This document shows, one piece after another, positions 14,572 through 27,700 of a stretch of 64,000 bases of DNA (the stretch's first letter is position 1; every line of letters starts with the position of its first letter). Under the pieces are notes generated by a model. That model did not search any database. It was not told the origin of the DNA and was given only the letters and a program-made list of their open reading frames with translations. Position numbers and translations under genes: made by a program. The stretch is from Bolinopsis microptera (Eukaryota > Ctenophora > Tentaculata > Lobata > Bolinopsidae). The stretch spans positions 13,487,865 through 13,551,864 of the forward strand of contig NC_087082.1 of NCBI RefSeq assembly GCF_026151205.1, given 5' to 3'.

Positions 14572-14978
14572 GCAGATTTCAAATACTTTCTTCAGAAACC
14601 TAAAATAAAGTGATTGTCAAGTTCAGTATAACAACACAGCTTATTACATCTGTTGGGTGATTTAAAAGCTATGTCGGCTAGCTTTAACGGTTTATGAACA
14701 TTGACAGTACCTGTTAACAGCGTTAATATTGTCAGTAGTTTTATATTGTTATACGAATATCTCAATGAGAAGTATATTGTTGTATGTTGAAGTTGGGGGG
14801 GGGGGGTGTAACCCAAAAAAACCCAACTCCTACCCAAGAAAAGGTAATACTGGGATTGGGTTTTTTTGGGTTTTTTTGGGTTTTTTAAACAAAATTTAAA
14901 CAAAATTCTAGCCATTTCATTAATTGCATTGAATGTGAATTATTTCCCACTGAGTCTTACCTACGTGTTGTTCTCATG

Positions 14979-17236
14979 TCATAACTTAATAGATAGTTTA
15001 CATAGTATATAAGTGTGTTTATATTGATAGTATGTTATCACGATAGCAAACAGGATGTCTCGTTCATCGAGATATAATCTATATGAATGCACAAAGTGGA
15101 AATGTGGCAAATGTGGCAAATGTGTTCTCCTGTCATGGAAGGAGGCTATGACGAAGGTCAAGGGCAAGTCAAAGCACATGACTTCAATTACTTGACTTAA
15201 GGCGGCTTCAGAGTCCGAGTCTCGATGATGTGTCTCCAAAGCTTTCTGTCCGTCCCAAGCTTCTTAATCTCCCCAGTGTTCTTGAGTCCAGAGTCACTTC
15301 TTAGGTTGTTGACAAAAGTGAGCGGTGGTCTGACCCGCCCTCTGGTCCCGTGGCGAGGTTCCCAAAGGAGAAGTTGGTGGGCTGCCAGGTCTTCATGTCC
15401 CTGAATGTGCCCAGTCAACCTCATTCTTCTGGCCTGTATCTTCGAAATAACTCTTGGGAGCGATCCAAAGTTCTCCTTGTTGGTGCGATGTCCTCTCCAG
15501 TCCACGTTTAGGGCCATCCGAAGCATTCTACTGTAACATCCGTCTATTCTTTTCTTCAAAGATTCTGTTGTTGTCCACGTTTTCGTTCCATACAGGAAGA
15601 TTGATTCAACCGTAGCTTGAACAGACGGATCTTTAAATCTCGGCGCAAATTGGACCTCCATATAGCCTACATTTTGTGCTAGGCAGCCCATGCCCTGGCC
15701 TTGCGTAACCTAAAGTCGTGCTCCGTTGTACTAAAATCCTCAACTTCTTCTAAGGCATGTCCGTCCTTAGAAATTATTGTGTGTGGCTCCTCTCCTACTA
15801 AATTAACTGTAAGATGCTTGGTTTTAGACAAAAGAGATTTCCTGCCTCCTCATCAGATGAGGCTTCTGAAGGACTGTAGCATGTGATGACAGTGAGCCTG
15901 GGCTTTCCATTAAGAGACATGGTGAGGATCCTTGCGCTGTAAGATTTTATAACTTTATAAGACTTATAGCCTCATATGCTGTCCTCGTCAAGATGATTCC
16001 TACTCTCCCATTAGAAGCGCCAGCTGCGTTTCACCATGCAGATGAGATCACTGGATGAATCCCTTTGTTCATCTTTTCTATTCTGGTATTCTCAGCAATC
16101 AGCATGCACTACCCGATGTTCGATTCTTGCAGGGCAAGGATGTGCAGCTTGCTTCGAGAAAATAGTTCTTCAAGTTCGATGCGTTTGTGCTGTTCTCTGG
16201 CTGTTCTTATGTTAAACGTGCCAACCTGAGCAGCCCTTTTACATGATACAATGCAATTGATGTTCATATTTTTTTGATGTTTTCTTGTTTGACTTTCTGT
16301 AGAAATAGGTTGTCGTGTTGTAGAGACCGAGTCATCAGTTTCTTTAATAGCAGTGTAATTAGTAATTAACCCGGCAACCACTTTCACTAGAAAAATAAGG
16401 GGCTTTAACCCTTGAGCTGTTGGTAAACTTCATCTTGACTTTTCAGTTCGCTCACAACCCTGTGCAGTCCCCTGCACATTGGCAGTGGATTGTGTTCTTA
16501 ACCCTTGCGCCACTAAAAGGTTAAGGACATCTGCTTGAACAATAGCCATCTTTAACTCTCACCATAATATCTTGGGTATCTTGAGCATGTAATTGCACGA
16601 GCATATATGCTATACAAGACAAATGTGACACTTCCTTTTTCTACCCAACAGCATCAGTTGTAATCCTTACCCAATCGTAACCTGCTCCAGTGTGGGACTT
16701 TCCGCTTTTATCCCAAAGTATAAGGAGGTTAGAGTGAGAACAAAGCTACACTTTAGCGGGGACTTACCCTTCCCCTGACTACCTTGTTACCCGGTACCCC
16801 GGGCATAGGGAGCCGTATCCTGACTACCAGAGTGTGGTCCAGTCTAGCTGGGTCATAGTAGACTAGGTTGAACAGGGTAACAGCCAACACCTCTTTAGCT
16901 ACTGTGTAATCCACAGTAAAGATTTACGAGTCTCAAAGCCTTTTGCAGACCAAGAGTTAAGGAGTCAATAGATCAAAGTATTGAACTTCCGGGGCTCAAT
17001 GTCTCCCGTCGACCGTCCTGCCTTTAGCCTGGACCCCCTGTCCAGTATCCAGTCTTCACCACGCGGAGGTAGTGGCTTTCATCATGCTGTCCGATGAGTG
17101 TCTGGAAGAGGGCACCAGCAGGATACCCCTTTTCAAAGTTCTGGGAGCCTCACATCAGACCAGGGCTTCCACCCAGCTTCTATCCAGCGGTGACGCATTG
17201 GGCCACCTAAGCTTCACACAACCATTGAAAGACCAC
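14979..17236 (-). mobile_element. RTE-type LINE, internally deleted copy
   Basis: On the minus strand the 5-prime untranslated part (17236 to about 16440) matches the leader of the intact copy at 38042-38790. At 16250-16109 it encodes CKRAAQVGTFNIRTAREQ and LHILALQESN, the start of the endonuclease. The reverse transcriptase core is missing. The C-terminus resumes at 15691-15197 with VESIFLYGTKTWTTTESL, RMLRMALNVDW, LLLWEPRHGTRGR and a terminal TRTLKPP, the same last residues as in the intact copy. It sits inside the G-tract element. Confidence 0.8.
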
Positions 17237-24700: not shown

Positions 24701-27700
24701 GACACGACGGTAACCGTATCATATTCGACGATTTCAGGTGAGAATTGACATGTTATAATTATATATTGTGGGGGGGGGGGTGTCACGTCCGTCTATGTCC
24801 GCTTGTCTCATAGAATCCAAAAAGGACAGGACATAGGCGGACATAGGCGGACATAGGCGGACATAGACGGACATAGGCGGACATAGGCGGACATAGGCGG
24901 ACATAGACGGACATAGGCGGACATAGGCGGACATTAATGGACACCTAAATTGCTAAATAAAATGTTCAATTTTTGCTGTTATAGGGGGGATCATGTTTTT
25001 TGTCCGGTCGGTACCCTATATTTTCAAAACGGACAAAAAATAGAGCGGACAAAAATGGACAAAAACGGACAAAAATGGAAATAACATTTAGATGCTTCCT
25101 CCTCCTCCTCCTCCTCCTGGGTCTTCCTGATCCTCCCCAGTCCTCTTCCTCCTCCCCTCCTCAGTCCTCCTCCTACTCTTCCTCCTCGTCCTCAGTCCTC
25201 CTCATCAGTCCTCAACAGTTCTCTTCCTCCCCAGTCCTCCTCCTCCTCCTGAGTCCTCCTCCTGGGTCCTCCTCCTGGGTCCTCCTCCTCCTATTCAGTC
25301 CTCCTCCTCCTCCTCCTTCTCAGTCCTCCTCAGTCCTCCTCCTCCTCCTCCTCTTCCCTCTCAGTCATCCTCCTCAGCCATCCTCCTCAGTCCTCCTCAG
25401 TCCTCCTCAGTCCTCCTCCTCCTGGGTCCTCCTCCTCATCCTCCTCATCAGTCCTCCTCCTCCCCAGTCCTCTCCCAGTCCCCCTGCTTCTCCTCCTCCT
25501 ATTCAGTCCTCCTCCTCCTCATCCTCCTCAGTTCTCCTCGGCCCTCCTTCTCATTTCTCCTAAGTCCTCCTCCTGAGTCCTCCTCGTGAGTCCTCCTCCT
25601 CTTCCTTCTGAGTCCTCCTCCTGAGTCCTCCTCCTCCCTCTCGGTCATCCTCCTCAGTCATCCTCCTCAGCCATCCTCCCCAGCCATCCTCCTCAGCCAT
25701 CCCCCTCAGTACTCCTCAGTCCTCCTCCTTCTCAGTCATCGTCAGTCCTCCTCTTCAGTCCTCCTCAGTCCTCCTTCTCCTCCTGGGTCCTCCTCCTCCT
25801 CCTCCTCCTGGGTCCTCCTGGGTCTTCCTGATCCTCCCCAGTCCTCTTCCTCCTCCCCTCCTCAGTCCTCCTCCTACTCTTCCTCCTCGTCCTCAGTCCT
25901 CCTCATCAGTCCTCAACAGTTCTCTTCCTCCCCAGTCCTCCTCCTCCTCCTGGGGCCTTTTCCTGGGTCCTCCTGATCCTCCTGGGTCCTCCTCCTCCTG
26001 GGTCGTCCTCCTCCTGGGTCCTCCTTCTCCTCCTCAGTCCTTCTCCTCCTCCTCCTCAGTCCTCTTCCTCCTCCTCCTCCCTCTCAGTCATCCTCCTCAG
26101 CCATCCTCCTCAGCCATCCTCCTCAGCCATCCTCCTCAGTCCTCCTCCTTCTCAGTCCTCCTCAGTCCTCCTCCTGAGTCCTCCTCCTCCTCAGTCATCC
26201 TCCTCAGTTCTCCTCCTCCTCCTCCTAGGTCCTCCTTCTGGGTCCTCCTCCTCTTCCTGGGTCTTCCTGATCCTTCTCCTCCCTCTCAGTCATCCTCCTC
26301 AGTCATCCTCCTCAGTCATCCTCCTCAGCCATCCTCCTCAGCCATCCTTCTCAGCCATCCTCCTCAGTACTCTTCAGTACTCTTCAGTACTCTTCAGTCC
26401 TCAAAATGTTTGTCCGCTAATGTCCACCAATGTCCGCTAATGTCCACCAATGTCCATCCAAGTCCGCCAATGTCCGTCCGGGTCCGCCAATGTCCGTCCG
26501 AGTCCGCCAATGTCCGTCCGAGTCCGCCAATGTCCGTCCGAGTCCGCCAATGTCCGTCCGTGTCCGCCCATGTCCCAAAAAACACGTCCGTTGTCTCATA
26601 GAATCCAAAAAGGACAGGACATGGGCGGACATAGACGGACATGACACCCCCCCCCCCCCCCCCCCCCCCCCTATTGTGTTCTTGTTTGCATGCTTTTGCA
26701 TTGCGTCTGGCCAACAATTTAACAAATTTCTGCTTTTGAACAAATGACTAGCTTTTTTCAGCTACGTTACTATTTATTGCCCCCTGTATGACACTCCTAT
26801 TAGTATTTAAATGTTTCCTCCATAAACTCACCCTATTTCCCCTCCAGAGAGGCGTACAACTGGCTGAAGTTCAACACCCCGGAGGATGCTAAGATAATGA
26901 GCTGGTGGGATTACGGCTACCAGCTAACTGCCATGGCTAATAGAACCATCCTGGTAGACAACAACACTTGGAATAACACGCATATATCCAGGGTGGGGCA
27001 AGCCATGGCAAGTCCTGAGGAACACAGCTACACTATCATGAAGGTATTGTGAATCAATTAGTCAAATTTAGTCATATCTCTATACTACCAGCCAATTTGT
27101 CACGTGTATATTTTTTTTGGCTATTCGCTATCAGCCTTTTGTTCGACCATCTTATTCCTTGTAAAAAATTGATCGACTTACCATCGTTATATTTAGGAAT
27201 TGGACGTGGACTACGTTTTGGTGATATTTGGTGGAATGTCTGGCTACAGTTCGGACGATATCAACAAGTTCCTTTGGATGATTAGAATTGGTGGCAGCAC
27301 CCCTGAAGGTAGCTAATCAGTTTAATAACTTGTTAATTACCGAAATAGTCGGTAAATTTCCCACTCTAATCAACAACAAAAAGAAACAAATTCTACTAAC
27401 CGATTTTGGCAGTTAATGAACTATAAAAAGTTCTTATTGTATTTCTCAAGACATAGTCAGATGAGCTGAGAGATGTTTCATCTCAGGAGTGCACATTAAG
27501 GAGCTGAATAATGTATTTTCTCAGGAGCCCACATTAAGGAAGGAGATTATTACTCTAGTTCTGGAGAGTACAAAGTAGACAAAGACGCTTCAGATGCTAT
27601 GCATAACTCTCTTATGTACAAGATGTGTTACTACAGGTAAATAAACTAAAATAACTAAACTTAAACTAACCAAGTTAGTAATTATAGTGGTAACTAAAGT

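Follow-up and report, generated by a model that had tools for sequence, protein, structure and literature searches.

Two probable non-autonomous foldback-like transposon families with G-tract tips in the ctenophore Bolinopsis microptera

The two elements of the window

The stretch of Bolinopsis microptera DNA considered here (the window, 64,000 nucleotides; C11 13487865-13551864) contains two elements, E1 and E2, each starting with a run of G and the triplet TGT, ending with ACA and a run of C, and bounded by target site duplications (TSDs). Both loci are insertions of dispersed mobile families in one genome.

E1 (14796..18369, + strand) is a complete, non-autonomous copy, recognised by its tips, its TSD and the blocks shared with other copies. 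The duplicated sequence, AAGTTG, lies at 14790..14795 (+), where its final G is fused with the G run, and again at 18370..18375 (+). The left tip (G run and TGT, 14796..14809, +) is followed by a module (14810..14882, +) consisting of an arm, a core (CTCCTACCC...ACTGGGA) and an opposite arm of 10-bp repeats; a direct repeat of this module at 95% (18282..18354, +) precedes the right tip (ACA and C run, 18355..18369, +). The body of the window copy, ~3.58 kb, holds a coding relic of ~260 codons (17234..17999, +), a relative of a multicopy protein family with a frame change near 17380. It also holds a degraded fragment of a long interspersed nuclear element (LINE; 15197..15709, - strand), which has no Pfam match alone and, with translations compared by eye, resembles the end of the LINE open reading frame (ORF) at 38769-41933; degraded LINE pieces were recognised in E1 bodies, likewise by eye. 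Blocks of >100 bp are common to the window copy and 17 other full-length copies at 89-98%.

E2 (24770..26671, +), also complete and non-autonomous, occupies an intron of an STT3A-like gene and was delimited by its tips and its TSD; the flanking exons match adjoining STT3A residues (460-505, E 3e-17; 507-556, E 1.4e-27). Its TSD is TATTGT (24764..24769 and 26672..26677, both +). The left tip (G run and TGT, 24770..24783, +) is followed by the left core TTGTCTCATAGAATCCAAAAAGGACA (24803..24828, +) and a left inner array of 10-bp repeats GGACATAGGC (24829..24934, +; 10.6 copies, 95% matches). On the right are an inner array in the opposite orientation (TGTCCGCCAA type, 26411..26575, +), a core with the same direction as the left one (26591..26616, +), an outer arm (26617..26643, +) and a tip of ACA and 25 C (26644..26671, +). 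The E2 interiors that were read consist of pyrimidine-rich or tandem repeats.

Tips and target site duplications

The tips described for the two loci in the initial annotation are present at both, and GGGGGGGGTGT has no occurrence in the window other than these four (0.01 expected from shuffles). As inverted sequences, the tips extend over ~32 nt in E1 (37 nt at 97% were reported, 5 of them in the flank) and over 33 nt at 97% in E2. Further copies came from the whole genome (264.65 Mb in 232 contigs, 13 of them large). For E1, 20 of the 39 places listed outside the window were fetched, 17 with both tips and 3 with one tip within the stretch. Together with the window elements, the E2 pairs and longer E2 elements these gave 33 rows for TSD scoring, representing 31 distinct elements, as L068 is a second reading of L012/L013 and a second left tip in L071 is spurious.

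The annotation had given exactly ten G and 7-bp duplications, and neither figure held. Over the 33 rows, read on the contig strand, the runs comprise 7-32 G and 8-36 C, the commonest length being 8 for each (among runs of at least 6 bases); in the direction of the element, the E1 tracts measure 8-34 and 7-29. The lengths vary probably by slippage. At both window loci the duplication is 6 bp and the supposed seventh base belongs to the G run. Among the 31 elements the TSD is exactly 6 bp in 17, 5 bp in 10, 7 bp in only 2 and imperfect in 2 (L071, with CATACA behind an interrupted C run, and L032/L033, with one mismatch in 6). All 10 of the 5-bp cases reach 6 bp by taking one C or G from the adjoining run, and a 6-bp duplication therefore fits 27 of the 31. 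If the true length were 5 bp, such an additional C or G would be expected in ~44% of cases, and ten out of ten would have a chance of ~3 in 10,000 (assuming even base composition). The usual TSD is therefore 6 bp, although the two 7-bp cases remain. When flanks were mismatched, at least 5 matching bases appeared in 0.85% of 1056 pairings. The duplicated 6-mers are mostly AT-rich and differ between insertions, so that the G tract belongs to the element rather than to its target.

Dispersal in the genome

The exact 20-mer of the E1 tip occurs at 139 places (68 + 71), the reversed control at none (0 + 0). Among 100 listed E1 tips, 82 combine into 41 facing pairs with spacings of 1.9-8.8 kb, which for 24 of the pairs are 3.1-3.6 kb. 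Left ends gave 156 first-look candidates for E1 and 979 for E2; the 40 candidates scored for each family match at 98-100% and 95-100%, respectively. The bare tip GGGGGGGGTGT is more widespread (820 + 786 places vs 374 + 439 for the reversed control). Its first 100 sites, all on C1, include 28 adjacent facing pairs within 10 kb; random placement gave 1.6 such pairs (8 at most) and strand shuffling 10.5 (20 at most). The remaining 44 of the 100 sites lie outside the 28 pairs, and the G tract alone therefore does not define an element. The proposal that the two loci represent mobile families with a common end architecture was sustained by their dispersal and by their target duplications, and the families are recent-looking.

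Architecture of the ends

Each end of E1 and E2 carries a module in which an asymmetric core lies between repeats of opposite orientation. As the initial annotation had it, the cores are repeated in the same direction at the two ends, and the wrapping repeats are oppositely oriented between the two sides of both elements. The E1 module, repeated directly over 73 bp at 95%, begins right after the left TGT and ends right before the right ACA; in E2 the direct repeat covers 52 nt at 96%. In either family the wrapping repeats recur every 10 bp (TTGGGTTTTT in E1, GGACATAGGC in E2). The cores were held to be unrelated between the families, which stands apart from a marginal likeness, AAAAAGGnCA (p = 0.036 for the E1 right core and 0.47 for the left); homology of the cores was rejected on this marginal match.

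The two cores of an element share one direction in every full-length E1 copy (18 of 18) and every distinct E2 pair (14 of 14); an extra left tip is present in two of the E2 pairs, L071 and L028/L029. The E1 core and the right tip are separated by 49 bp in 6 of the 18 copies, by 59 bp in 11 and by 69 bp in 1, a spacing that changes in exact 10-bp steps; with whole 10-bp units gained or lost, a bound protein would stay on one face of the helix. The ends of E1 are more alike than its interior: identity at the right end, which was not used in choosing copies, is 98.8% over the last 70 bp and 98.5% over the preceding 80 bp, vs 93.1% and 86.6% further in, where the values include indel misalignment.

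Hairpins are predicted for single-stranded DNA at three of the ends (z -2.4 to -5.5). At the E2 right end, a short piece gives z +0.45, and -5.92 is reached only once the inner repeats are included. The arms of E2 extend up to 115 nt at 79% complementarity, those of E1 over only ~32 nt. Because the arms on either side of the core are inverted relative to each other, placing two modules in direct orientation would automatically give inverted outer arms, and the direct core alone would therefore be no evidence for a new mechanism.

Junctions between elements

Predicted hairpins on the same strand at both ends would also suit a quite different scheme, in which direct modules are read as single-stranded DNA in the manner of IS200/IS605 and transposition passes through single-stranded or circular intermediates. 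At C8:6259513-6266028 two E1 copies of near-equal length stand head to tail, and their junction (L073 1-16) reads ACA, C8, G5, TGT with no target bases between. This tandem dimer is what a joined-end intermediate could leave, but insertion in the G tract of a neighbour or tandem duplication could equally account for this single case. No tip-to-tip junction of the form searched was found for E2 in the genome, and a 6-bp TSD together with inverted tips is unexpected for IS200/IS605. We therefore consider the single-strand scheme very improbable. The more general idea of joined ends was also dropped: ACACCCC..GGGGTGT occurs at 28 places vs 17 in the control, 7 of the 28 are from one array on C5, and none has the longer E2 form.

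The C5 array (C5:14315219-14332021) comprises seven such junctions of 38 bp each at even steps of 2.77-2.81 kb and consists of head-to-tail repeats of some unit that, by its tip letters, is not E2. At another of the 28 places, a relative of the E1 relic with 521 aa is 3.7 kb away (C5:8583744 and C5:8587420; 0.11 expected for all).

The coding relic and candidate enzymes

Of the 15 loci that cover the frame change near 17380, 14 have it at an identical position, L049 being broken there differently. Searches for relatives matched 131 and 141 stretches of the genome, among them groups whose frames run without interruption for 521 and ~344 aa. The relic itself gave nothing significant in Pfam, NCBIfam or PDB and nothing in IMG/VR; its best PHROGs match (E 0.0039) falls within an acidic stretch. 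One relative, L072, is 33-34% identical and its frame continues upstream into a TCC-rich repeat. It contains the motif SDSCEQLFAFLR, which may resemble the catalytic-Glu region of P-like transposases. P-type RNase H (PF21787) had no match in the genome, where its control was silent too. The TCC-rich repeat that precedes the relative (L072 1-327) is of the kind filling E2.

Proximity of coding sequences to the elements was assessed with listed tips, namely 100 E1 tips, 40 E2 ends and 92 of the first 100 bare C1 tips, clustered ones having been dropped; such a comparison leaves room for an autonomous copy elsewhere in the genome. Of the 141 rows, 68 were retained as relic relatives once the E1 relics and additional pieces had been set aside. 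In the listed part of C1, 2 of 5 relatives are near a tip (0.62 expected). Two of the 68 (on C74 and at C10:17812758) are closer to the E1 relic than the others, and the C74 relative has an E1 tip ~2 kb away that is outside the list of 100.

The fetched E1 copies contain no ORF >219 aa except one of 467 aa in L047 (3419-4819 of the element as cut), which lies in a 1.9-kb insert absent from the other E1 copies. The two longest E1 pairs are C4:8919184-8927940 (8.76 kb) and C2:14564267-14573037 (8.77 kb). The former encloses an integrase domain (C4:8923751) in a 1080-aa ORF; no other E1 pair contains a listed integrase. Six other places match at the same score, none of them in the 41 listed E1 pairs. 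Overall, the listed integrase places show no association with these pairs or with the 68 relic relatives. The C4 pair was accordingly rejected as an autonomous E1, its length most likely being due to a nested insertion, probably of a long terminal repeat (LTR) retroelement. The long E2 pairs (L067-L071) were rejected as well, since their longest ORFs fall within repeats, either tandem or of low complexity.

Two known groups of elements were considered as possible origins. Foldback elements with composite terminal inverted repeats (TIRs) made of tandem repeats have been assigned to Mutator, as in Tm1 (PMC3169594) and Tetris (PMC4079207), and E1 and E2 might be Mutator-superfamily foldback elements with an unusual TSD. 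The genome holds 88 MULE matches, and a distance of 9.8 kb separates one of them from a listed E2 end (0.27 expected). Two C1 tips have a MULE match nearby (0.87 expected), the MULE place adjoining a tip pair from outside. However, none of the 88 has a listed E1 tip (of 100) within 10 kb, which given 0.67 expected means only that there is no enrichment, and the TSDs given for Tm1 and Tetris are 8-10 bp rather than 6. A Mutator origin thus appears unlikely.

A slightly lower likelihood still attaches to derivatives of Polinton/Maverick or of IS3EU/GingerRoot-like integrase elements in which a G tract has been added outside TGT...ACA. Their TSD is likewise 6 bp (PMC10045372), TGT...ACA resembles integrase termini, polymerase B is represented in the genome by 20 matches, 13 of which have frames of 859-1261 aa without interruption, and integrase domains are numerous (of 394 candidates, 150 were scored). 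Yet none of the 20 polymerase B places has a listed E1 tip (of 100; 0.15 expected) or a listed E2 end (of 40; 0.06 expected) within 10 kb. Moreover, the termini of IS3EU are reported as TA..TA (PMC10045372), and in E1 and E2 the duplications enclose the runs of G and C, which makes G, not T, the outermost base. Three divergent pairs of polymerase B matches with 1261-aa open frames, 6.7-9.9 kb apart (C9:663553-672993, C7:6691702-6704377, C9:6595755-6607507), are arranged as if parts of larger inverted elements.

Other features of the window

Two ORFs of 1060 and 1054 aa (7651-10833, - strand; 38769-41933, + strand), with reverse transcriptase and endonuclease-like domains, represent non-LTR retrotransposons; the endonuclease-like domain is weak in the second. 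A minisatellite with a 28-bp unit (13.1 copies, 96%) occupies 22456-22820. Adjacent, near-identical ORFs of 415 and 403 aa at 32216-33463 and 34259-35470, with hydrophobic stretches and a proline-rich tail, are a recent tandem duplication, the first of them having no clear Pfam family. An UNC-93-like transporter gene (59504-60610, - strand) has a near-identical second piece at the end of the window, a tandem copy, and the antisense ORFs in this region (59646-60068 and 63565-63987) are almost identical.

Proposed mechanism and its standing

We put the probability at about three in four that both families are foldback-like DNA transposons, non-autonomous and with short inverted ends of composite, repeat-built structure, served in trans by one transposase that makes a 6-bp joint. 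This transposase would come from an element not found here, bind the tip and join the element through a 6-bp stagger, and the 10-bp repeats may act as secondary binding sites phased at one turn of the helix. Two direct copies of the module would present inverted arms at the tips, making inversion of the core needless for function. With less assurance, the E1 relic ORF may be a remnant of the transposase, or of an accessory gene, of a former autonomous element.

Several observations weigh against this interpretation. E1 and E2 share little other sequence, and the common enzyme is therefore deduced from the tip, the TSD and the repeat period. Only two families are concerned, and the agreement in core direction could be accidental at a chance of ~1/2. 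No autonomous copy was found among the copies and listed tips examined, and the 10-kb surroundings of the 68 places with relic relatives contain none of the 100 listed E1 tips and none of the 40 listed E2 ends. The tract pattern used in TSD scoring required runs of at least 6, leaving shorter ones invisible, and one E1 junction with only 5 G falls below this cut-off.

Some of these points lend themselves to a more sceptical account, in which the shared architecture is partly coincidence: the elements would be ordinary foldback-type transposons whose tips expanded as microsatellites and whose core direction arose by chance. A palindromic module works either way round, tract length is variable and G8TGT is common without elements, which, with only two families known, gives this account some weight. 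The G-run-TGT tip, the 6-bp TSD and the 10-bp repeat period, however, agree in both families, and 8 is the commonest length of both runs (counting runs of at least 6). Partial coincidence is accordingly possible, though doubtful. About as tentative is the proposal that goes furthest in the other direction, namely that the two families might belong to an undescribed superfamily defined by G-tract tips, a 6-bp TSD and direct hairpin modules phased at 10 bp, with the C-terminal part of its transposase, from a protein family lacking relatives in Pfam, NCBIfam or PDB, preserved as the E1 relic and its ends recognised partly by the G/C tract.

If the single-transposase interpretation holds and one enzyme reads a homopolymer tip together with a direct hairpin module, the logic of recognition would be unlike that of the families compared here, and such ends would let family-specific modules change while tip and TSD stay. 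A palindromic module duplicated directly is a simple route to inverted ends that can be sought in other genomes. The abundance of the elements, the near-identical E1 ends and the clean 6-bp TSDs make the comparison of empty sites between individuals direct.

Comparison with known systems

Few papers in the open-access literature searched deal with ctenophore transposons, and none there, judged by titles and abstract openings, describes G-tract transposon tips. The initial annotation knew no named class for these elements. This needs correcting in that composite inverted repeat ends are a hallmark of foldback elements, whereas the combination of tip, TSD and direct core indeed fits no family compared: in the open-access literature, with subscription papers and Repbase outside its scope, no compared family joins a G tract, a 6-bp TSD and a direct module.

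The elements do not fit LTR retrotransposons. The 73-bp E1 modules have no ACA at the left inner edge and no TGT at the right inner edge, and since they are thus not bounded by TG and CA, they do not qualify as LTRs. IS200/IS605 elements carry subterminal hairpins in the same orientation, with no TSD and no inverted tips. E1 and E2 resemble them in hairpin orientation, a mechanistic analogy, and differ by their 6-bp TSD and inverted tips. The P superfamily has TSDs of 7-8 bp, unlike the families described here, with 6 bp in 27 of 31 elements and 7 bp in 2.

Among elements with comparable TSDs, Dada produces duplications of 6-7 bp and encodes a DDE transposase distantly like those of MuDR, hAT, P and Kolobok (PMC3706591). 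It is reported to be without terminal inverted repeats, with all copies that have clear termini in small RNA genes (PMC3706591), in contrast to the inverted tips and mostly AT-rich 6-mers of E1 and E2. IS3EU/GingerRoot and Polinton share the 6-bp TSD, but TA..TA termini are reported for IS3EU/GingerRoot (occasionally TG..CA in GingerRoot), unlike the G and C runs that are outermost inside the duplications here.

The closest parallels are found in the foldback group. FB, Tm1 and Tetris also have ends of oppositely oriented tandem repeats with variable repeat number, are often non-autonomous and have a variable middle. Tm1 and Tetris differ by their 8-10 bp TSD, vs 6 in E1 and E2, and the passages compared mention no G-tract tip or direct core. 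Galileo, a foldback-like member of the P superfamily, has several transposase binding sites inside repetitive TIRs (PMC3688188) and offers a model for the 10-bp arrays of E1 and E2, although its TIRs, at ~1 kb, are longer than their ends. E1 and E2 thus have the inverted termini and fixed-length duplication of a class II TIR DNA transposon and, in both families, the inverted ends of oppositely oriented 10-bp tandem units that mark the foldback group.

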